This document shows positions 4,132-62,216 of a DNA stretch of 64,000 nt, piece by piece. Numbering within the stretch: position 1 is the stretch's first letter; the number at the start of each line of letters is the position of its first letter. The DNA comes from Methanoculleus horonobensis (GTDB taxonomy: Archaea; Halobacteriota; Methanomicrobia; Methanomicrobiales; Methanoculleaceae), in contig NZ_BCNY01000015.1 of the NCBI RefSeq assembly GCF_001602375.1, forward strand, positions 62,001 through 126,000. The letters run 5' to 3'. Position numbers and translations under genes: made by a program. The notes beneath the pieces were generated by a model. It was not told the origin of the DNA. It saw only the letters and a program-made list of their open reading frames with translations, and made no database searches.

Positions 4132-7100
4132 CTACATGAAATCCGCGAGCCCCAGTTGCTTCTCCGGGGGCTCGCCGAAGGTCGACTCGATCTGCATGAA
4201 GAGCACCTCCACCCGCTGCTTCGTGTAGTCCGATATCGCGTAGGTCGCACAGATGTTGCGCGACATCTCCAGGTACTTCTTCACCGAGCCCTCGTGGACG
4301 GTCGGGATGACGTTGCCGCCGCAGCGGGTGCACTTCCCCGCGAGCGGCATCCGCCGGTACTTCGCGTTGCACTTCATGCACCGGACTTTCTGTTTGGAGA
4401 ACGCGTTCAGGTTGCCCTGGAGGTCGCGGATGAAGTGGGTGTTCAAGACCCGTTCGGCAACATCGTCCTCGTCAACCGCCCGGATCCTCTTCGCGAGATC
4501 GAGCTCCGCCTCGAGTTTGTCGAGCATCGACCCGAGCCTCGTGTAGGTGGACTCGAGCGGCCCCGCCGAGATGTTCGATGTCTGGTGGGTGAAAGAGAAC
4601 CCCTCACACTGCGCCGGGGTCCCGAGCCGCCGCTCCACCCGGTCGACGAACGCATCGAGGTCTTTGGGGTGGGCGTAGGCGAGACAGCCGTTGTAGACCT
4701 CGATCGGGTAGTGGTCGCAGACGTCGACGTTGTGGCTCTCCTTGTCGACCTCCGCCGGGTCGATCCGGGTCGTCAGGACGAGCGGTGCGTCCATCGTCCC
4801 GCCCCGGGTCTCGGGGAGGTAGGCACGGGAGAAGTTGATCAGGCCGTCGAGGAGGAGCATCACGCAGTCCTCGTCGCCGTCGCACTGCCCGCAGAAGATC
4901 CCGTTCGCGACGAGGGTGTGGTTCTCGGCAACCGTCAGGCAGTAGACCCGGTCGTCGAGCGCCTGCACCGTCTCGCGGGAGACGACCTCGTCCGCCACGA
5001 CGAGCCCGCCCTCCTCCACCGGGACGCGGTCGCCGACCGCGACCTCGAGCGCCTTGACCTTCCGGAGATAATCCGTGTCCCAGACCAGCATCGCGTGGTC
5101 GGGCGTCACCGTGAGGATCTTCCCCCGGCCTGTTACGAACCGGACGAGGTGCGCCGGGGCGCGGTGGACGGAGACGGACGTCACCTTTTTGACGCTAGTC
5201 TTCCCCTGCGAATCGATGCTCCTGACGTAGAACGGCTGCTTCGGATCGGAGTAGAACGTTCCCACGTGGTCAAGCCCCGGCTTCGAGAGATCGAAGCTCT
5301 CCGTCACGAACTGCCGGATCGGCATCGTCGTCCACCCCCGGCCGTCGGAGACGGTGATCTCCGTATCGCCTGCGAAACAGTTCCGCCGTTTCGCCGCGTG
5401 GAAGAACGGGTGGCCGTAGCCGACCGGGGCCTTCGAGAACCCGATCAACCGGACGAGAACCCCGGCGCTCGTGTGCGGGGCAAGCCCCATCAGGAGGTGG
5501 CCGACCAGGTCGAGCGGCTTCTCCGCCTTATAGAACGGTTCGAGCCCGTACAGCCGCACCAGGAGATCGTCGACGAACTTCGCCACCCGGACGAGCCACT
5601 CGCCGCAGTCCTGCGAGACCAGGATGTCCTGGTGGCGAAGTTCCAGCACCTGGTCGTCCGAGACGAGTTCCCGGCCGTAGGTGTCGTGGGTGTAGCCGAG
5701 CTCCCGGAGCCGCTCGATCGGGACACCGACCTCGTCCGGCCGGAAATGGGTCAGGGGAAGGTCGATCATATCGTAGCGGACGGTGCCGTCCTTGAAGACA
5801 TAAAGGTTCTGCAACGCCCGGAGGATCCCCTTCTCGATCGGCTCCACCGGCCGCTCGCGCGAGATCAGCCCTTTCACGCCCTTTAAGAGCGCGACCGAGG
5901 ACTCGCGCACCCCGAGGCTCTCCATCGCCGCCAGATACTCCGCCTTCACGTTGATCGTGACCTTCTGGAGGCAGACCGTCGGCATGTTGCACCGGGGGCA
6001 GATGGCCTGGCCGACGTCCTTGCCGCACTTCGGGCACCGGAAGACCGGGTTCGTGTGCGCCCCGCACTCACAGAGGTTCTTGTAGGTGAAGGCGCCGCAG
6101 GCGGGGCACTGCCGCTCCCCGACCTCCGCCTCGATCACCCCCCCGTCGGTGTTCGACCGGGGCTTCGAGGAGCAGGCCGCCTGGAACGACCGGCGGGCGC
6201 CGCCGTCGTCGCCGATCGGAAAGAGGGAGTGAGGCGGCGGGCGCATCTCCCGCGGCTTCGACTTCCCCGGCCGCCCCATCCGGCCGCCGATCCGGGTTCC
6301 CGCCCGCGAGCGCACCGTAAAGCCCGAGAGGTGCATCACCAGATCGAGCGAGTTCTCCATCGGCGCGTCCTGCCACGCCGGCCGCTTCGTCAGTTGCAGC
6401 GTCAGCCCGAGGCAGGCGAGGAAGACCAGGTGCTCGCGGATCGCCAGCCGGTCACCCGAGAGGTGGTGGGGCACCAGGATCTCCTCGAGGACCGCCTTCG
6501 TCTCGGGGGTGTTTCGGATCATCAGCACCCCGTCCTCGATCGTCCCGCCGGCGCTGACCGCTTCCGCGAGGCGGGCTATATCGGCCGGGGCGACGTCGTC
6601 CCACATGTAGGTGTGGTCGGGATGGAGCGGAGCCCCGTCGAGCGCGAACTCGATCGCTTCGAGTTCGTTCTCCGGGTGGCGGGGGCCGCCCTCGAGCATC
6701 CACCACTCCTCGCAGTAGGCCGGGGGCATCAGCGGGTGGTTGTTCTCCATGAACTCCCCAAAACTGACCAGCATCTCGCCGACGTCCAGGATCTCGTCCA
6801 CCTGCCCCGCGAGCCGCCGGGCCTCCGCCGCGTCGTCCACCCGGCACACCTCCCCGCTCCGGAGTTTGACCGTCGGCCCCTGGATCGAGTCGACCGGCAC
6901 GACCCCCGCAGCCTTCCCCGGCCGCTCGACCTTCATCTGCGTCCCGACCGCGAGGAAGTCACCGAGGATGTGCAGCGTCGCCGGGTTGAAGCCTGCGGCC
7001 GCAAACCCGGTGTTCCGCGCCCGGCCGAGGCGCAGCCGGAACCCGCCCTTCCGCATCGGGTAGGAAAAGACCGGCCGGCCGCCGATCAGGTCGCGGATGT

Positions 7101-7989
7101 ACTTGTCTTTCGGCTTGATCGCAGCGCTCGCATCGTCGTCGTCGCTCTTCGGGCCGCCGCTGATCATCTCCTCGATCCAGTCCCAGCCCTCCATCTTCAT
7201 CTTGCGGACGTTTTTTAAGACTTTCGGGGCCTTCAGCGCCAACCCTTCCGCGACGACGAGCGCCATCCCGCCCCGGACGGTGTTCGTCTCCACCCGCTCC
7301 AGGTTCCGGTAGCCGCTCACCTCCTGCTGCTCCGTCGGCTCGCCGTCGATGCAGACCGGGCAGTTCTCGATGATCGTCCGGAGTTCCTTCTCGCTCGGGA
7401 GATACTGGAGGCTCATGATGTTGTTGTACTGCCGGATCTCCTCGATGTAGCGCTCCACCTCCTCCGGGCGGGGAATGTAGCGGTTGATCCCGAGCGCCTG
7501 GCGCACGTAGTCGCCCACCAGCACCGAGAGTGCCTGCGCCGTCCCGCCCGCGCTCCGGATGGGGCCCGCGTAGTAGATCTTCAGGTACTCCGTCCCGTCG
7601 TCGTTCTTCCCGAGACTGACCTTCCCGATCCCCTCCGTCGGGGCGGCAACCACGCCCTCCGTCAGGAGCGCCATCGCTCCCCTGATGGCGTGGTCGAGGA
7701 TCTCCTCCGGCGTGGTCTCGCCGAACTTCCGGGCCACGAAATCGTCGCCGATCTTGAGCGCCGCCTCTTCGCGGGACATCTCCGCCTCGAGCTCCCGTAT
7801 CCGGGCCGCGATCCCTTTGTAGCCGAGGAGCGCTTCGACACGGTCGGCGAGGTCGCTTGCCACCGGGATCTCGATCTCCGTTCTCGGATCGAGCCCCCGG
7901 GTGCGTGCGGCGGCGGCAAGCCGCATCGCAGCCTCGAGCCCTGCCCCGAGTTCGTCGAAGTACCGGGCGATAGCAGGCGAGACCTCCAT
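4132..7989 (-). CDS. polC: DNA polymerase II (PolD) large subunit DP2, interrupted by an intein
   Basis: A 1285-residue precursor, 1120 residues after splicing, the normal length for euryarchaeal DP2. DP2 is the polymerising subunit of the heterodimeric replicative polymerase D; the small subunit DP1 is not in this window. The conserved aspartates of the polymerase site lie in the motif NCDGDED, where the Asn is the last residue before the intein and the Cys the first after it. Cysteine clusters typical of DP2 zinc modules are visible ([32 protein letters not shown] and, near the end, CMKCNAKY...CTRCGG). The protein cannot work without splicing because the active-site motif is split. The start ATG gives the standard [14 protein letters not shown] opening. 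Confidence 0.97.
4885..5379 (-). mobile_element. Mini-intein in DP2 (165 residues, no homing endonuclease)
   Basis: Begins with Cys1 in block A ([10 protein letters not shown]), has block B with TPDHAML, and ends with block F ([18 protein letters not shown]) and the tail CGQ before the +1 Cys. The terminal residue is Gln rather than the usual Asn, and the penultimate residue is Gly rather than His. A C-terminal Gln is known for inteins at this PolII site. There are only about 45 residues between blocks B and F, so no LAGLIDADG endonuclease fits. It sits inside the polymerase active-site motif, as inteins often do. It is self-excising but cannot home by itself. Confidence 0.93.
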
Positions 7990-8076: not shown

Positions 8077-8670
8077 TCAGAGGATTCCGGCGAACCTGAT
8101 GAGATTCTCGCGGATTCCTTCCGGCGGAAGCATCTGATCCACCCGCCCGGTCGCGAACGCGGCGCGGGGCATGTAGTGGATGGCGCATGTCCGGAGAGCC
8201 TGCGCGAATGTGGCCCCTCCGATGGACTTGATGTGGCGGATCCCCTCGGCACCGTCGCTTCCCATCCCCGAGAGGATCACCCCGGCAAACCGGTCGCTGC
8301 CGCGCCGTTCAAGCGACATCATCGCGACGTCGATCGAGGGCCTGACGTACTGCACCTTCGCATCGTCGAAGAGGCTGATCGTCCGGTTTTCGACGAGTTT
8401 TAAGTGGACGTCGCTTGGAGCCACGTAGATCTTGCCGTGCTCGATCTCTTCGCCGTCCTCCGGAATCCTGACCTTCATGAAAGAGATCTCTTCGATATGG
8501 CGGCAAAGCGCGTTGTTCATGGTGTGCGGCATGTGCTGGACGAGGATGACGGCGGCATCGACAAGCGGGAACTGGGAGAAGACGACCTCCAGCGTCCGCG
8601 CCCCTCCGGTCGACGAACCGATGACGACGATCGTCCGCCCATCCCGGGGAAGAGATACGTGATAATCCAT
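8077..8670 (-). CDS. cheB: Stand-alone CheB-type protein-glutamate methylesterase domain
   Basis: A 197-residue protein made only of the CheB catalytic domain; the usual N-terminal receiver is missing. The catalytic triad motifs are present: Ser in GSSTGG, His in VQHMP and Asp in GMGSDG. CheB removes methyl esters from, or deamidates, glutamyl side chains of chemoreceptors. The gene follows a CheY-like receiver after 12 bases, so the receiver may act in trans as the missing regulatory half. A GGGGGAG ribosome site precedes the start. No CheA, CheR, CheW or chemoreceptor gene is in the window, so the substrate is unclear. Confidence 0.88.
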   Translation of the reverse strand: MDYHVSLPRDGRTIVVIGSSTGGARTLEVVFSQFPLVDAAVILVQHMPHTMNNALCRHIEEISFMKVRIPEDGEEIEHGKIYVAPSDVHLKLVENRTISLFDDAKVQYVRPSIDVAMMSLERRGSDRFAGVILSGMGSDGAEGIRHIKSIGGATFAQALRTCAIHYMPRAAFATGRVDQMLPPEGIRENLIRFAGIL

Positions 8671-8682
8671 GCAATCTCCCCC

Positions 8683-9069
8683 TTACGGCAGGTAATTGAG
8701 GTACCCTTTCACGAGGGCCACGATCTCGTCCGCCTCAAACGGTTTCGTGATGTAATCGATGACGTGCTCCTTGAGGGAGTCCAGTTCTGCGTCCGGGACA
8801 TCCTTTGCAGTGAGCATCGCGATGACGTTCCCCTCCATGAGATCGCCGTCGATCATCTCCTGGATCGTCTCCCATCCATCCTTTCGGGGCATCATGATGT
8901 CCATCAGGATGACGCCCCGGAACCCGTTCGCGAGTTCTGCGATACATGCATCGCCGCTCTCCGCGGCGACGACCCCGATCCCCTCCGGTTCGAGGAGTTC
9001 CTCCATCACCTCGAGGATGAAGACGTCGTCGTCGACGACCATTATCCGCCTGCTCGATTCCTCCGCCAT
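8683..9069 (-). CDS. Single-domain response regulator (CheY-like)
   Basis: A 128-residue receiver domain with no output domain. The acidic pocket (VVDDD), the phosphoacceptor Asp (LMDIMMP), the conserved Thr (MLTA) and Lys (TKPF) are all in place. It lies between a histidine kinase gene upstream and the stand-alone CheB gene downstream, so phosphate flow from that kinase to this receiver, and control of CheB by it, is a reasonable inference. A GGGGAGG ribosome site precedes the ATG, and a TATA box lies about 55 bases upstream, so it may also be transcribed separately from the kinase. Confidence 0.9.
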   Translation of the reverse strand: MAEESSRRIMVVDDDVFILEVMEELLEPEGIGVVAAESGDACIAELANGFRGVILMDIMMPRKDGWETIQEMIDGDLMEGNVIAMLTAKDVPDAELDSLKEHVIDYITKPFEADEIVALVKGYLNYLP

Positions 9070-9123
9070 CTGCTGCCTCCCCGGGACCCGCCGGGTTGTT
9101 AAATAAACACTCTCACCCGGAGC

Positions 9124-9133
9124 AGTATATAAC
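9124..9133 (-). promoter_or_regulatory. TATA box upstream of the CheY-like gene
   Basis: On the minus strand the sequence GTTATATACT lies in the 76-base gap between the kinase stop and the receiver start. It matches an archaeal TATA element and would place transcription start near 9100, giving a short leader with a ribosome site. Assigned by eye. Confidence 0.45.
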
Positions 9134-9145
9134 CCTGCGGATTTC

Positions 9146-11011
9146 TCACGCCGCGTCTACCGCCTCGAGGGTGAATATGATCGTCGAACCCCTCCGCTCC
9201 CCGGCGCTCTCGGCCCAGATCCGCCCTCCGTGCCGCTCCACGATCCGCCGGCAGATCGTGAGGCCGAGGCCCGGTGAGTCGAGGTCGTGCCGGGAGGCGT
9301 CGGCCTTGTAGAACTCGGCAAACGCCTTTTCGAGCTGCTCGCGGGTCATGCCGATCCCGGTATCCCTGACCGAGACGACCACGACCTCCTGCTCGCGGGC
9401 GGCATCGATGGTGATCGTCCCCTTCTCACCCTCCAGGTACTTGACGGCGTTGGCGATCAGGTTGTTGAAGACCTCCCCGAGAAGAACCCGGTCGGCCCTG
9501 ACGGTGGTTCCGGGGGGGATGTTGTTGTTGAGGGCGACGGCCTTCGTCTTGAAGAGAACGGCGTAGTTCCGGAGCGTGTTGTCGAGTTCCGTCTTCAGAT
9601 CGAGGGGTTCGAGATCGAGCTCGATGTAGAGGGAGTTCATCCGGGCGAGCTGCAGGGTCTTCTGGACGAGTTCCTTCATGTAGGTGACGTTGTGACCGAC
9701 GATCTCGAGGAGGCGCCGGAGATCCGGGTTCTGCTCCCGCTCTATGACCCTCGGCATGAGCGCGACCAGCGGGGTTAAGGGCGTCTTCAAGTCGTGCCCG
9801 AGCTGCGATATGAACTCGTCCTTCTGGGCGAGGAGTTTCTCCACGTCGGCGGTCCGCTCCCTGACCAGCGCATCGAGTTCCTGGTTGACGACGGAGAGCT
9901 GGCTCCGGAGCATCTCCAGTTCCCGGTTCTTCGCCTGGAGGTTCCCGGCAAACCCTTTGAGCGCCTCTTCCGCCTGCACCCGCTGGGTGATGTCGATCCC
10001 GAGCTGCAGCATCAGGGGCGCCCCGTCCGTATCGGTGAACGGGTAGGCGTGAACCTCGTAGGTCTTCCCGTTCGTATGATCCCACTCCCACTGCTGCGGG
10101 CTTCGGAGGGTGAAGACCATTCCCCCCTTGCAGGGGTTGCAGGGTCTCCGGGAGCCGCGCTGCACCTCGTAGCAGCGTCCTCCCTCCGGGTCGCCGAAGG
10201 TCTCCCGGAACGCCCTGTTGGCGAACCGGATGGTGTGATCCTCCCCCTGCAGGGTGACGTACGCAGGCAGGGTATCCAGGATCGAGAAGAGGCGGCGGCG
10301 TTCGGCGTTCAGGGCGGATTCCGCTTCCTTGTACCGGGTGATCTCCGAGACGCGGCAGGTGACGACGACGTCTTCGAGGCAGCGCCCCCAGAGGACGAGC
10401 CAGCGTATTCTGCCGTCCCTGCCGAGGAACCGCGTCTCGATGACTACGTTGCCCGCCCCCGGCTGCGCCTGCGCGAAGAACCGCTCGCGGTCGTCGGCAT
10501 ACGGCCAGATCTTCGATAGCGGCAGATTCTGGAGATCTCTCCTCGCGTAGCCGAGAAGTTCCGCGAAGTCCCGGTTCACGTCCACTATCGTTCCGTCCTC
10601 CCGGCTGAGAAGAAACGCGCCGCCGGGAGCCCGTTCCATGGTCTCCCGGTAGTGGATCAGTTCCCGGGTCGAGTAGCCCACGGTCGAGGCGAGCGACGCA
10701 AGGGCGACCATGGCGACGAAGGGGAGGAATATGCTCGGGTTGAGCGGGTAGGCGCGCCCTGCCGTGACACCGAGATAGGCGATCCCGAGCACGGTGGCGG
10801 CAACGATCCCTTTCTCGCGGTAGAGGTAGCCGACCGCGATTGCGGGGACGAAGAGAAGGGCCCAGAGGATGAGGTTGGTGCCGGGCGGCTCCACGAGAAG
10901 CGCGGCAAGGATTGCCGTCCCGAAAGCGCCGGCTACCAGGACTTTGCCGGGTTCACGGAGGTCGCCCTCCTGCAGGAACCGGAGGGGGCCCTCCGTCGTA
11001 CGAGATGCCAT
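9146..11011 (-). CDS. Membrane sensor histidine kinase with two PAS domains
   Basis: A 621-residue protein. Residues about 22-115 hold several membrane segments. PAS domains lie near 125-230 and 240-350; the second carries Cys at 280 and the pair C291/C294 (RPCNPC), a pattern seen in some archaeal PAS domains that could bind metal or act in redox sensing. The phosphoacceptor is His406 in SQLGHDLKTPL. The ATPase domain has the N box NNLIANAVKYL, the DTGIG box and the GLGLTICRRIVERHGG box. It is 29 bases downstream of a HEAT-protein gene and 76 bases upstream of the CheY-like gene. The signal is unknown. Confidence 0.92.
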   Translation of the reverse strand: MASRTTEGPLRFLQEGDLREPGKVLVAGAFGTAILAALLVEPPGTNLILWALLFVPAIAVGYLYREKGIVAATVLGIAYLGVTAGRAYPLNPSIFLPFVAMVALASLASTVGYSTRELIHYRETMERAPGGAFLLSREDGTIVDVNRDFAELLGYARRDLQNLPLSKIWPYADDRERFFAQAQPGAGNVVIETRFLGRDGRIRWLVLWGRCLEDVVVTCRVSEITRYKEAESALNAERRRLFSILDTLPAYVTLQGEDHTIRFANRAFRETFGDPEGGRCYEVQRGSRRPCNPCKGGMVFTLRSPQQWEWDHTNGKTYEVHAYPFTDTDGAPLMLQLGIDITQRVQAEEALKGFAGNLQAKNRELEMLRSQLSVVNQELDALVRERTADVEKLLAQKDEFISQLGHDLKTPLTPLVALMPRVIEREQNPDLRRLLEIVGHNVTYMKELVQKTLQLARMNSLYIELDLEPLDLKTELDNTLRNYAVLFKTKAVALNNNIPPGTTVRADRVLLGEVFNNLIANAVKYLEGEKGTITIDAAREQEVVVVSVRDTGIGMTREQLEKAFAEFYKADASRHDLDSPGLGLTICRRIVERHGGRIWAESAGERRGSTIIFTLEAVDAA

Positions 11012-11040
11012 CAGACCCTAGAGATCTGAAGGCGTCTCGA

Positions 11041-11568
11041 TCATTTATTGTTCGCGGATTGGCTTCTCGCTTCCAGCGCCTCGGTGAGCGGGCCGGCACC
11101 CGTCTCCCCCATCTTCCAGAGGAGGAGCGCGGCGCGCTCCTGTGTCTTCGCATCAGGGCTCTCCATCAGGCGGAGGAGCGGTCCGACCGCCGCCTCACCG
11201 ATCTTCGCCAGGGCCAGCGCGGCGAACGGCTGGAGGTCGGCATCGGCGTTCTCGATGACGGCGACAAGGGGTTCGACGGCGGGATCGCCGATCTCCGCGA
11301 GGGCCGCCGTGGCGTAGCGCCGGAAGTCGCGGTCGTCTACGGCACGCATCGCCATGAGGAGGGGATCGATCGCCGGCTCCCCGATCCACATCAGCGCACG
11401 GGCGGCATACCACCGAACGTCGTTGTTTTCGGCCTTCATCGTGCCGATAAGCGGTTCTACAGCCTCTTCCCCGCTCTCACCGAGCTCGGCGGCCGCCGCC
11501 CGGCGCGCCGCGAGAGGGCCGTCCCGGAGATCGGCGATCAGTTCCTCGATCCGGGTTCTGTCAGTCAT
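11041..11568 (-). CDS. HEAT-repeat (PBS-lyase type) protein
   Basis: A 175-residue protein made almost entirely of about five repeats of roughly 31 residues of the pattern DxxVRxxAAxALGxIGDPAVEPL. Such alpha-solenoids are protein-binding scaffolds and usually have no enzyme activity of their own. The ATG at 11568 was chosen; a GTG at 11583 is also in frame. It lies 26 bases after a membrane-anchored HEAT gene and 29 bases before a histidine kinase, all on the minus strand, so co-transcription is likely. Its partner is unknown. Confidence 0.8.
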   Translation of the reverse strand: MTDRTRIEELIADLRDGPLAARRAAAAELGESGEEAVEPLIGTMKAENNDVRWYAARALMWIGEPAIDPLLMAMRAVDDRDFRRYATAALAEIGDPAVEPLVAVIENADADLQPFAALALAKIGEAAVGPLLRLMESPDAKTQERAALLLWKMGETGAGPLTEALEARSQSANNK

Positions 11569-11594
11569 AGCGTTCAGGTGCACACTTGCTGTTG

Positions 11595-12797
11595 TTATGT
11601 CTTCCTGATGTTGCCGAGCGCCTCCCGGGCAGCCTCGCGCACCTCAGCCCGTTCGTCTTCGAGCGTCCGGATCAGGATGTCGGCCGAACTGCGATCCCCG
11701 ATCTCCCCGAGGGCGCGTACGGCTCCCGTCCGGACACGCAGGTTGTCGCCGTTCCGGAGCACGATGGCGAGCGCGGGGACGGCGGGCTTCCCGATGAGGC
11801 CGAGAGCGGCGACCGCTCCCCGCCGGAGGAGTTCGCTCTCTGTTCCGAGCGCCTCGATGAGGGAAGGGACGGCAGGCTCGCCGATATCCCCGAGAGCAGC
11901 GCAGGCCCGCTGCCGCACCTCCCCGTCCGGGTCGCGGAGCGCTTCGACGAGGATCGCAGTACTGCCCTCCCCGCCGATGCTCCCGAGCGCAATCGCCGCT
12001 CCCCGCCTGACGCGCTCGTTCCCGTCAGAGAGGCCGGCGACGACCTCCTCCCGGGCGGGCTCGCCGATCGCGCCGAGTGCGAGAGCCGCCCGGCTCCGGA
12101 CGTAGGAGTCCTCGTCGTCGAGCGCGCTCATCAGCGCCGGAATCGCCGCGGGATCGCCGATCTCCCCGAGAGCGACAGCGGCCATCCAGCGGACATCGAC
12201 GTTCTCGCTCTTGAGGCTCGCCGTGAGCGGCCCGACGGCCGGAGACCCCAGTCTTCCGAGTGCCTCCGCCGCCTTCCACCGGACGCCGACCTCCGGATCC
12301 GCGAGGAGTGCGGCGAGCGGTTCGACCGCTGCGGGGTCGCCCCCGTTGCCGAGGCACCCGGCCGCCTGGTAACGGGTGTCGGGGTCGCGGCTCGATAGCC
12401 GGGAGATCAGCCGTCTCGTGTTCCGGTCGCACGCGGTTCCGCCGGTCTCATCGATACGGAAGTGGAGACCGCCGGCACGCCTGCCCGCCATCTCGAAGAG
12501 GTAGCCGAGGAGGTATGCGGCGACGACGAAGGCGGCCGCATTCACCAGGATGCCGGTGCCCGGGGTTCCGTAGAGGATGCTCCCGACGGTGACGTGAACC
12601 ATGGCGAGCAGAACCCCGACGATGATCGCACGCCGCCGGTACCAGAACGCAGCGAGGATGAGCACCAGGTAGAAGAGGTGGGTATACGCGATCGTGCCGA
12701 AGGCGAGATCCAGGAGAACGGCAAGTGCCGTGACGAGGACGATGACTGCAGGCCTGCCCCATGCCTCTGCACTCTTCGACGAACCTGCAGGACTCAT
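11595..12797 (-). CDS. Membrane-anchored HEAT-repeat protein
   Basis: A 400-residue protein. Residues about 15-105 form three or four membrane segments. The rest is about eight HEAT repeats of the DxxVRxxAAxALGxIGxPA type. The membrane part aligns without gaps with the N-terminus of the histidine kinase at 60.8 kb: His40 followed by LFY, a Trp near 52 and an Arg near 55-56 recur in the same order. It therefore looks like a kinase-type membrane sensor fused to a solenoid in place of a kinase core. It is first in the HEAT/HEAT/kinase run. The function is inferred from architecture only. Confidence 0.8.
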   Translation of the reverse strand: MSPAGSSKSAEAWGRPAVIVLVTALAVLLDLAFGTIAYTHLFYLVLILAAFWYRRRAIIVGVLLAMVHVTVGSILYGTPGTGILVNAAAFVVAAYLLGYLFEMAGRRAGGLHFRIDETGGTACDRNTRRLISRLSSRDPDTRYQAAGCLGNGGDPAAVEPLAALLADPEVGVRWKAAEALGRLGSPAVGPLTASLKSENVDVRWMAAVALGEIGDPAAIPALMSALDDEDSYVRSRAALALGAIGEPAREEVVAGLSDGNERVRRGAAIALGSIGGEGSTAILVEALRDPDGEVRQRACAALGDIGEPAVPSLIEALGTESELLRRGAVAALGLIGKPAVPALAIVLRNGDNLRVRTGAVRALGEIGDRSSADILIRTLEDERAEVREAAREALGNIRKT

Positions 12798-12854
12798 CTT
12801 TAAGAGGTGGTGCGGGCCGCACCCATAAAGAGTTTATGCGGTGCGGCTTCCGCC

Positions 12855-60794: not shown

Positions 60795-62216
60795 GTGACT
60801 ACCCTTACCGAACACCAGCGAGCGGCCATCGTCATGGCACTCCTCGTAATATCGGTCTTCCTGACCTACTACTTCCACGCGGTCCTGATGCTCGGAACCG
60901 TCTTTTCGCACTTCTTCTACATCCCGATCATCCTGACCGCGCTCTGGTGGGAGAAGCGGAGCATACTGGTCGCTATCTTTCTCGGCGGGCTCGTCGTCGT
61001 CAGCAGCCTCCTTTACCGGCCCGATCTCCTGACCCTGAACGACTACGGACGCGCACTGATGTTCATCGTCATCGCCTTCGTCGTCGCATCCCTCTCCGAG
61101 CAGCTCAAAGGGCGGGAACAGGAGGTGAAGAGGCAGAGGGATCTCATGCAGCGTTACCTGGACGTGGCGGGCGTCCTCTTCGCCGTCATCGGCACCGACC
61201 ACACCATCCGGCTCGTCAATCGCCACGGGTGCGAGCTGCTCGGTTACCGGGAAGAGGAACTGCTCGGGAAGGACTGGTTCGACACAGTCGTCCCCGGAGG
61301 GCTCCGGGAGGCGCGACGGCAGGCTTTCGACGAGGCGATTGCCCGGAAAGCCGCCCTCCCGGGGCAGCGGGAGAACCCTGTCGTCACGCGGAGCGGCGAC
61401 GAACTGATCCTCGCGTGGCAGGACACCGTGTTCACCGGCGACGACGGCCGACCGCTCGGGGTAATCGGGTCGGGGGCCGACATCACCGACCGTATCCGGG
61501 CCGAAAAGGAGCTGCGGGAGGCTCACGACGAGGCGAACCTCTACCTCGACATCATGACGCACGATATCAACAACGCGAACGCCGTCGCTCTCGGGTATGC
61601 CGACCTGCTCGAGACGACGCTCGGCGCGGGGGAGCGGGAGATGGTTCGGAAACTCAGGGCCGGCGTCGACCGGAGCATCGAGATCATCCAGAACGTCACG
61701 ACGATAAGAAGGCTGCACTCCCATGAGACGGCGACGAAGCCCGTCGACCTCGACGCGATCGTCAGGGCCGAGATCGCCCACCATCCCGGCGCCCGGATCG
61801 CGTATCGGGGAGAAACGGTCGGGGTCATGGCCGACGACCTTCTCTCCGAGGTCTTTGCAAACCTCATCGGCAACAGTATCAAGTTCGGGGACCCGGAGAT
61901 CGAGATCACCGTCAGGGTCGAGGAGAGCGGCGATCAGGTCGAGGTCTCGGTCGAGGATACCGGGCCCGGGGTGCCCGATGCAGTCAAACCAATCCTCTTC
62001 ACCCGTTTTGCGCGGGGGAAGAGCAGCAGGAGCGGGAAAGGGCTCGGGCTCTACATCACCCGCACCCTGATCGAACGCTACGGCGGCCGGGTATGGGTCG
62101 ATGACCGGGTTCCGGGGCGTCCGGAATGCGGCGCGGCGTTCCGGTTCACCCTCCTCCGGTCGGGCTGGAGACGGAAGCCGCCGGCGGCCTGCCCGTTGGT
62201 CACTGCCAGATCTTGA
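60795..62216 (+). CDS. Membrane sensor histidine kinase with one PAS domain
   Basis: A 473-residue protein starting with GTG behind GAGGTG. Residues about 10-105 form four membrane segments; His39 followed by FFY, Trp51-Trp52 and Arg55 align with the membrane HEAT protein at 11.6-12.8 kb. A PAS domain lies near 120-235. The phosphoacceptor His is in DIMTHDINNANAV, followed by the ATPase boxes NLIGNSIKFG, DTGPGVPD and GKGLGLYITRTLIERYGG. No response regulator is adjacent, so it may be an orphan. It overlaps the next, convergent gene by 17 bases. Confidence 0.92.
   Translation: MTTLTEHQRAAIVMALLVISVFLTYYFHAVLMLGTVFSHFFYIPIILTALWWEKRSILVAIFLGGLVVVSSLLYRPDLLTLNDYGRALMFIVIAFVVASLSEQLKGREQEVKRQRDLMQRYLDVAGVLFAVIGTDHTIRLVNRHGCELLGYREEELLGKDWFDTVVPGGLREARRQAFDEAIARKAALPGQRENPVVTRSGDELILAWQDTVFTGDDGRPLGVIGSGADITDRIRAEKELREAHDEANLYLDIMTHDINNANAVALGYADLLETTLGAGEREMVRKLRAGVDRSIEIIQNVTTIRRLHSHETATKPVDLDAIVRAEIAHHPGARIAYRGETVGVMADDLLSEVFANLIGNSIKFGDPEIEITVRVEESGDQVEVSVEDTGPGVPDAVKPILFTRFARGKSSRSGKGLGLYITRTLIERYGGRVWVDDRVPGRPECGAAFRFTLLRSGWRRKPPAACPLVTARS

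Follow-up and report, generated by a model that had tools for sequence, protein, structure and literature searches.

A conserved kinase-receiver-CheB gene module in Methanoculleus horonobensis and its relatives

In a 64-kb stretch of the Methanoculleus horonobensis genome (64,000 nucleotides, positions 62,001 to 126,000 of contig NZ_BCNY01000015.1; hereafter the window), five genes on the minus strand encode two HEAT-repeat proteins, a histidine kinase, a single-domain receiver and a CheB methylesterase. The conserved unit among these is the set of kinase, receiver and stand-alone CheB, and the HEAT pair is an older, separable neighbour of that set. We propose that the three genes constitute a two-component system in which the receiver would control CheB in trans, probably adjusting chemoreceptors; for this statement as a whole, including the standing of the HEAT pair, we consider confidence and doubt to be evenly balanced.

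The five-gene locus

The five minus-strand open reading frames were found where a first, sequence-only reading had placed them, and are separated by gaps of exactly 26, 29, 76 and 12 bases. Together with the gene bordering them they are as follows.

11595..12797, minus strand: membrane-anchored HEAT-repeat protein, 400 aa (Pfam HEAT_2, 1.5e-61)
11041..11568, minus strand: soluble HEAT-repeat protein, 175 aa (Pfam HEAT_2, 1.3e-20)
9146..11011, minus strand: membrane PAS histidine kinase, 621 aa (Pfam PAS, 1.1e-13; HisKA, 1.8e-8; HATPase_c, 4e-26)
8683..9069, minus strand: single-domain receiver of a module-specific lineage, 128 aa (Response_reg, 6.8e-21)
8077..8670, minus strand: stand-alone CheB methylesterase/deamidase catalytic domain without receiver, 197 aa (CheB_methylest, 4e-51, residues 15-189)
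4132..7989, minus strand: DNA polymerase D large subunit (DP2) gene, with Pfam PolC_DP2 domains, border of the putatively inserted block

Upstream of the locus lies a DJ-1/PfpI gene, and downstream the gene for the large subunit of DNA polymerase D (polD). The latter (4132-7989) carries an apparent short intein, with a Pfam Intein_splicing score of 23.8 bits, below the family cut-off of 35.8. The membrane HEAT protein has its hydrophobic stretches inside residues 18-105, and the N-terminus of the histidine kinase is hydrophobic within residues 22-112; a membrane sensor domain common to these two proteins is not claimed, as the hhalign probability was only 24.6%. At the threshold used, Pfam placed a single PAS domain in the kinase, and a second one is plausible. 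Among close relatives, pN/pS was about 0.10-0.23 for kinase, receiver and CheB and about 0.40-0.46 for the HEAT genes. With such low values all five genes are thus maintained, and the three module genes are more constrained than the HEAT genes.

Distribution of the module and ancestry of its receiver

Of 35 Methanoculleus genomes, 20 have stand-alone CheB of the window type, which was also identified in three other genera of the home family. A Methanoculleus CheB 76% identical to that of the window lies in an identical gene order. At the complete CheB loci of this family the order kinase, receiver, CheB is constant, with the soluble HEAT gene on one side of the three and polD on the other; at one locus (L052) the contig ends just past CheB. 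The same order was observed in most loci of a second Methanomicrobiales family, in three more archaeal families and in the Geobacteraceae, with CheB identities of 38-50% at these loci beyond the home family. A cluster of 28 archaeal module CheBs was obtained, at 94/88. One locus type of the second family has a receiver-CheB pair without an adjacent kinase, and at the archaeal locus L193, the sole module locus without receiver-CheB adjacency, CheB has neither kinase nor receiver beside it. The linkage of kinase, receiver and receiver-less CheB in the sequence-only reading is thus upheld by an order kept across Methanomicrobiales, other archaea and Geobacteraceae. The gene-order check it had called for within Methanomicrobiales gave a divided answer: the kinase-receiver-CheB linkage was kept, but no HEAT gene was found at module loci outside the home family. 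In genus g79, CheB is followed by NuoE/NuoF-like, ferredoxin-domain and glutamate-synthase-like genes in a conserved series (L194:6155-11926 and the matching L193:100-7412), which is a possible functional neighbour.

The window kinase has both HisKA and HATPase_c domains, and the receiver has a phospho-acceptor Asp, as expected of a HisKA two-component pair; the VDDD, MDIMMP, T and KPF positions are visible in the receiver sequence. All 33 module receivers, from archaea and bacteria alike, group in a single clade (100/100) to the exclusion of CheB receiver domains and two CheYs, which alone made up the narrow outgroup of this tree. Such a separate clade speaks against descent of the receiver from CheB's own domain, and an origin of the window receiver as a CheB receiver cut loose was rejected on this ground. 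Its best solved relative is PDB 3cg4, a CheY-like receiver solved in isolation, the PDB name of which gives no function. The module receiver of L058, from another genus, differs from 3cg4 only in the first of 132 matched residues.

The H-box of the window kinase reads QLGHDLKTPL, and GHDLKTPL or a close variant occurs in most module kinases; a conserved helical linker before the H-box is common to module kinases. Sensor inputs vary, from membrane and PAS in the window kinase to HAMP (L194), many PAS domains (L196) and Cache plus PAS (Geomonas). The kinases of L196 and L197 do not have the common H-box, and the CheBs of these two loci fall outside the main CheB cluster; this pair may therefore represent an independent assembly.

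A CheB without its own receiver

Against PF01339, the window CheB scored 173.6 bits (cut-off 24) and covered profile positions 1-173 of 174. Its motifs GSSTGG, QHMP and GMGxDG are intact, and the GSSTGG, QH and GMGxDG positions, which hold the Ser-His-Asp catalytic residues, are invariant across 20 aligned module CheBs and align to CheB structures; PDB matches of the window protein were 3sft, 1chd and 1a2o. CheB is normally under CheA control via its own fused receiver. Catalytic domain and active-site motifs are the same in canonical receiver-CheB proteins and in module CheB, and methylesterase/deamidase chemistry is expected, but the canonical protein has an N-terminal receiver fused through a linker, whereas the window CheB begins at the catalytic domain. 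Module CheB is without both receiver and linker, and its partner receiver is separate and of another lineage. Furthermore, canonical CheB is paired with CheA, while the module kinase is of the HisKA type with a sensor of its own. In its proposed working the module resembles the CheB branch of chemotaxis, but its CheB is not a canonical receiver-CheB.

Among the best 80 matches of the genome collection, 75 other proteins have at least 120 residues preceding the CheB domain, as in receiver-CheB fusions, a count that leaves out the module member L094; one further short CheB (L117) was found among the same 80. Among plasmids, no match reached 60% identity, and most of those found were rhizobial. 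Within a che cluster containing CheA, CheW, MCP and CheD genes (L198:9220-10170), a receiver-less CheB lies beside a separate CheY-like gene; a free CheB thus occurs in a second arrangement, unlike that of the module. Open frames of about 1000 aa matching both CheB and CheR were observed in five Methanoculleus genomes (G063:C3, G046:C2, G088:C181, G096:C5 and G052:C8), and fused methylesterase-methyltransferase proteins therefore also occur in this genus.

Predicted transcripts

Two TATA-like boxes were located at the locus.

12823..12830, minus strand: TATA-like box CTTTATGG, predicted promoter of the HEAT-HEAT-kinase transcript, found in most Methanoculleus genomes compared
9126..9133, minus strand: TATA-like box GTTATATA in the kinase-receiver gap, predicted promoter of the receiver-CheB transcript

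The first lies upstream of the membrane HEAT gene. In the kinase-receiver gap, T[AT]TAT[AT] occurs 53-67 nt ahead of the start codon, a nearly constant distance, in 18 of 20 genomes, against a mean of 0.4 and a maximum of 4 in the shuffled control. No TATA-like box was found in the two upstream gaps (HEAT-HEAT and HEAT-kinase), and a bacterial promoter scan gave no match, as expected for an archaeon. The arrangement suggests two transcripts, HEAT-HEAT-kinase and receiver-CheB; since the gaps between the first three genes are short and without a TATA-like box, these genes may have a common transcript, and the prediction thereby leaves room for a HEAT-kinase link inside the home family.

A separate box ahead of receiver and CheB would also suit genes that are merely neighbours, the kinase-receiver pair having its own output and CheB being a spare methylesterase for ordinary chemotaxis. 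A precedent for the latter is Campylobacter jejuni, in which CheB consists of the catalytic domain without a response-regulator domain and serves the chemotaxis pathway without a receiver (PMC3879368). However, the receiver adjoins CheB at all module loci except L193, in archaea as well as Geobacteraceae, and the module receivers are a lineage of their own; we regard mere neighbourhood as decidedly unlikely. That kinase, receiver and CheB work together is, in our judgement, highly probable.

The HEAT pair and the history of the block

The HEAT genes follow a course separate from that of the module. An ortholog of the membrane HEAT gene is present in 33 of 35 Methanoculleus genomes, including CheB-free ones, and in all 11 readable loci without the kinase-receiver-CheB block the HEAT pair still lies beside polD. 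In G063 the frame of the membrane HEAT gene is broken in two (L047:6563-7767). HEAT-polD adjacency without the block was also observed in another genus of the home family and in the second Methanomicrobiales family. Two of the 11 block-free loci (in G022 and G080) retain HEAT-HEAT-kinase with a full-length kinase, receiver and CheB being gone, and remnants of the block were found in two others.

L073:8688-8930 and L074:4046-4105: scars where the kinase-receiver-CheB block was deleted, lying between polD and the soluble HEAT gene

In G028 the scar is a fusion of kinase residues 2-75 with CheB residues 169-197, and in G120 it retains the CheB tail, residues 177-196; the absence of the block in these genomes is therefore due to secondary deletion. 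Mapped by a quick method on the PolD and HEAT tree, presence and absence of the block require 8 changes, at least 6 of which are forced by supported branches. From the HEAT pair kept at polD without the block, the scars and the repeated changes, it follows as the most likely history that HEAT genes and polD were neighbours first, that the block entered between polD and the soluble HEAT gene, and that it was then lost in at least six independent events.

These observations bear directly on the earlier suggestion that the five genes are one HEAT-centred system with the HEAT proteins as scaffolds or CheB substrates. The gene order is indeed kept in four genera of the home family, a common HEAT-HEAT-kinase transcript may follow from the short gaps without a TATA-like box, the kinase stays with the HEAT pair in G022 and G080 after loss of receiver and CheB, and a HEAT_PBS protein of Halobacterium binds Che proteins and is required for motor switching (PMC2666748). 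Against this stand the retention of the HEAT pair in every readable block-free locus, the number of presence/absence changes together with the scars, the HEAT-polD linkage without the block in other genera, the HEAT-free module loci outside the family and the weaker constraint on the HEAT genes. We consider a single HEAT-centred system very unlikely: the HEAT pair stays at polD after block loss, and the block elsewhere is HEAT-free. The HEAT proteins were likewise set aside as the favoured targets of CheB, since they are separable from the block and have no match to the receptor-methylation consensus.

Chemoreceptors and the likely target of CheB

The sequence-only reading had noted that the window has no chemoreceptor, CheA, CheR or CheW, and that no receptor is visible for this CheB. 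This holds for the 64-kb window, in which none of the genes that canonical receiver-CheB is encoded with (CheA, CheR, CheW or MCP) was found, but not for the genome, and some relatives have the module adjoining MCP or che genes. Outside the window, the genome contains two MCPs (contigs C13 and C15), with CheR and CheW adjoining the first; on C14 a CheA gene neighbours a full receiver-CheB, and C15 has a further CheA/CheW/MCP group. The cell thus has a pool of receptors available to CheB.

The closest association with receptors was observed in the second Methanomicrobiales family, where five of ten locus types have a convergent MCP gene about 13-73 bp beyond the end of CheB. These types are groupings by common neighbour genes, and for one of the five (L070) the MCP was recognised from a short match at the edge of a contig. 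In a simple binomial calculation such adjacency has a probability of 1e-7 or less. The adjoining MCPs are mostly poly-HAMP proteins, usually with several to 15 HAMP_2 repeats. Four giant MCPs of 1335-1787 aa (L062:10449-14453, L057:4603-9417, L064:10581-15941 and L069:4964-9481) have 10 to 15 HAMP_2 in series and are convergent with receiver-CheB pairs; no Cache or PAS matches were found in these four. In the Geobacteraceae, one receiver-CheB pair has a Cache-HAMP-MCP gene 31 bp further on, and the Geomonas paludis module comes after CheA-CheW-MCP-CheR-CheD-CheB. No MCP was found near the module in the home family, and co-occurrence of the module with the second MCP in Methanoculleus was rejected (Fisher p 0.19). 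In a weak test, the receptor-methylation consensus was matched at least once by the first MCP of the M. horonobensis genome and by each module-adjacent MCP tested, and gave no match in its second MCP, the HEAT proteins or the kinase.

Some module carriers may do without receptors. In three home-family genomes with the module (G155, G136 and G139), all incomplete, no MCP, CheR or CheW was found, and in a fourth incomplete one (G104) CheA and CheB are present, with MCP and CheR not found. Completeness of the four is 81-89%, and che genes are missing in 2 of 11 Methanoculleus genomes of 80-88% completeness, as incompleteness would predict. G155 was for this reason rejected as proof of a receptor-free system; the absence of MCPs in all three module carriers from other home-family genera is suggestive.

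If the module works without chemoreceptors, CheB would demethylate or deamidate another protein, possibly the kinase's own helix, as feedback. The genomes just described are in keeping with this, as are the conserved helical linker ahead of the H-box in module kinases and the methylation of a signalling helix of the kinase RsbK by CheR-like RsbM in Bacillus cereus (PMC4574943). On the other hand, the genomes without MCPs are incomplete, the kinase has no match to the receptor-methylation consensus, and the module lies at receptor genes in half of the second-family locus types and in the Geobacteraceae loci. We regard receptor-free working as unlikely; its more specific form, a receptor-independent switch in which CheB controlled by kinase and receiver modifies a non-chemoreceptor such as the kinase in archaea having lost chemotaxis, appears slightly less likely again. 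A chemoreceptor is the target of the stand-alone CheB that we favour, by a modest preference.

Proposed mechanism and relation to known systems

Gene content and conserved order, common ancestry of the receivers, intact catalytic motifs, purifying selection and the MCP adjacency in relatives are observed, and phosphotransfer, control in trans and the substrate of CheB are inferred. The membrane PAS kinase would sense a signal and autophosphorylate, and the phosphate would pass to the single-domain receiver, which in its phosphorylated form would bind or release the stand-alone CheB and so change its activity. Control of CheB in trans by the receiver, already raised as an option in the sequence-only reading, is the best reading of such a gene set. 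The likeliest substrates would be glutamates or glutamines in the methylation region of chemoreceptors, and a kinase other than CheA would thereby gain a second input into receptor adaptation.

Stand-alone CheB in archaea and receiver-less CheB in C. jejuni are already known. The C. jejuni protein belongs to a CheA chemotaxis pathway, for which no dedicated kinase-receiver pair is described in the available part of that report (PMC3879368), whereas the module has such a pair. Galperin et al. (2018) list 'CheB' without REC among archaeal architectures (PMC5847659, Table 2); in the section consulted, neither a kinase-receiver-CheB module nor a phylogeny or receptor neighbourhood is described. 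The RsbK/RsbM system of B. cereus (PMC4574943) is like the module in tying CheR/CheB-type modification to a HisKA sensor kinase instead of CheA, but RsbM is a methyltransferase with no cognate methylesterase reported, while the module enzyme is a CheB. In the open-licence literature searched, we found no description of a dedicated kinase-receiver-CheB module, its spread over two domains of life or its receptor neighbours.

As the module occurs in archaea as well as in Geobacteraceae, and a crystal structure of one of its receivers is available (3cg4, with no stated role), the proposal is directly testable. If it is true, signals that bypass the chemoreceptors could reset receptor sensitivity via a free CheB with a dedicated kinase and receiver; alternatively, glutamate demethylation or deamidation may be used by these organisms outside chemotaxis.
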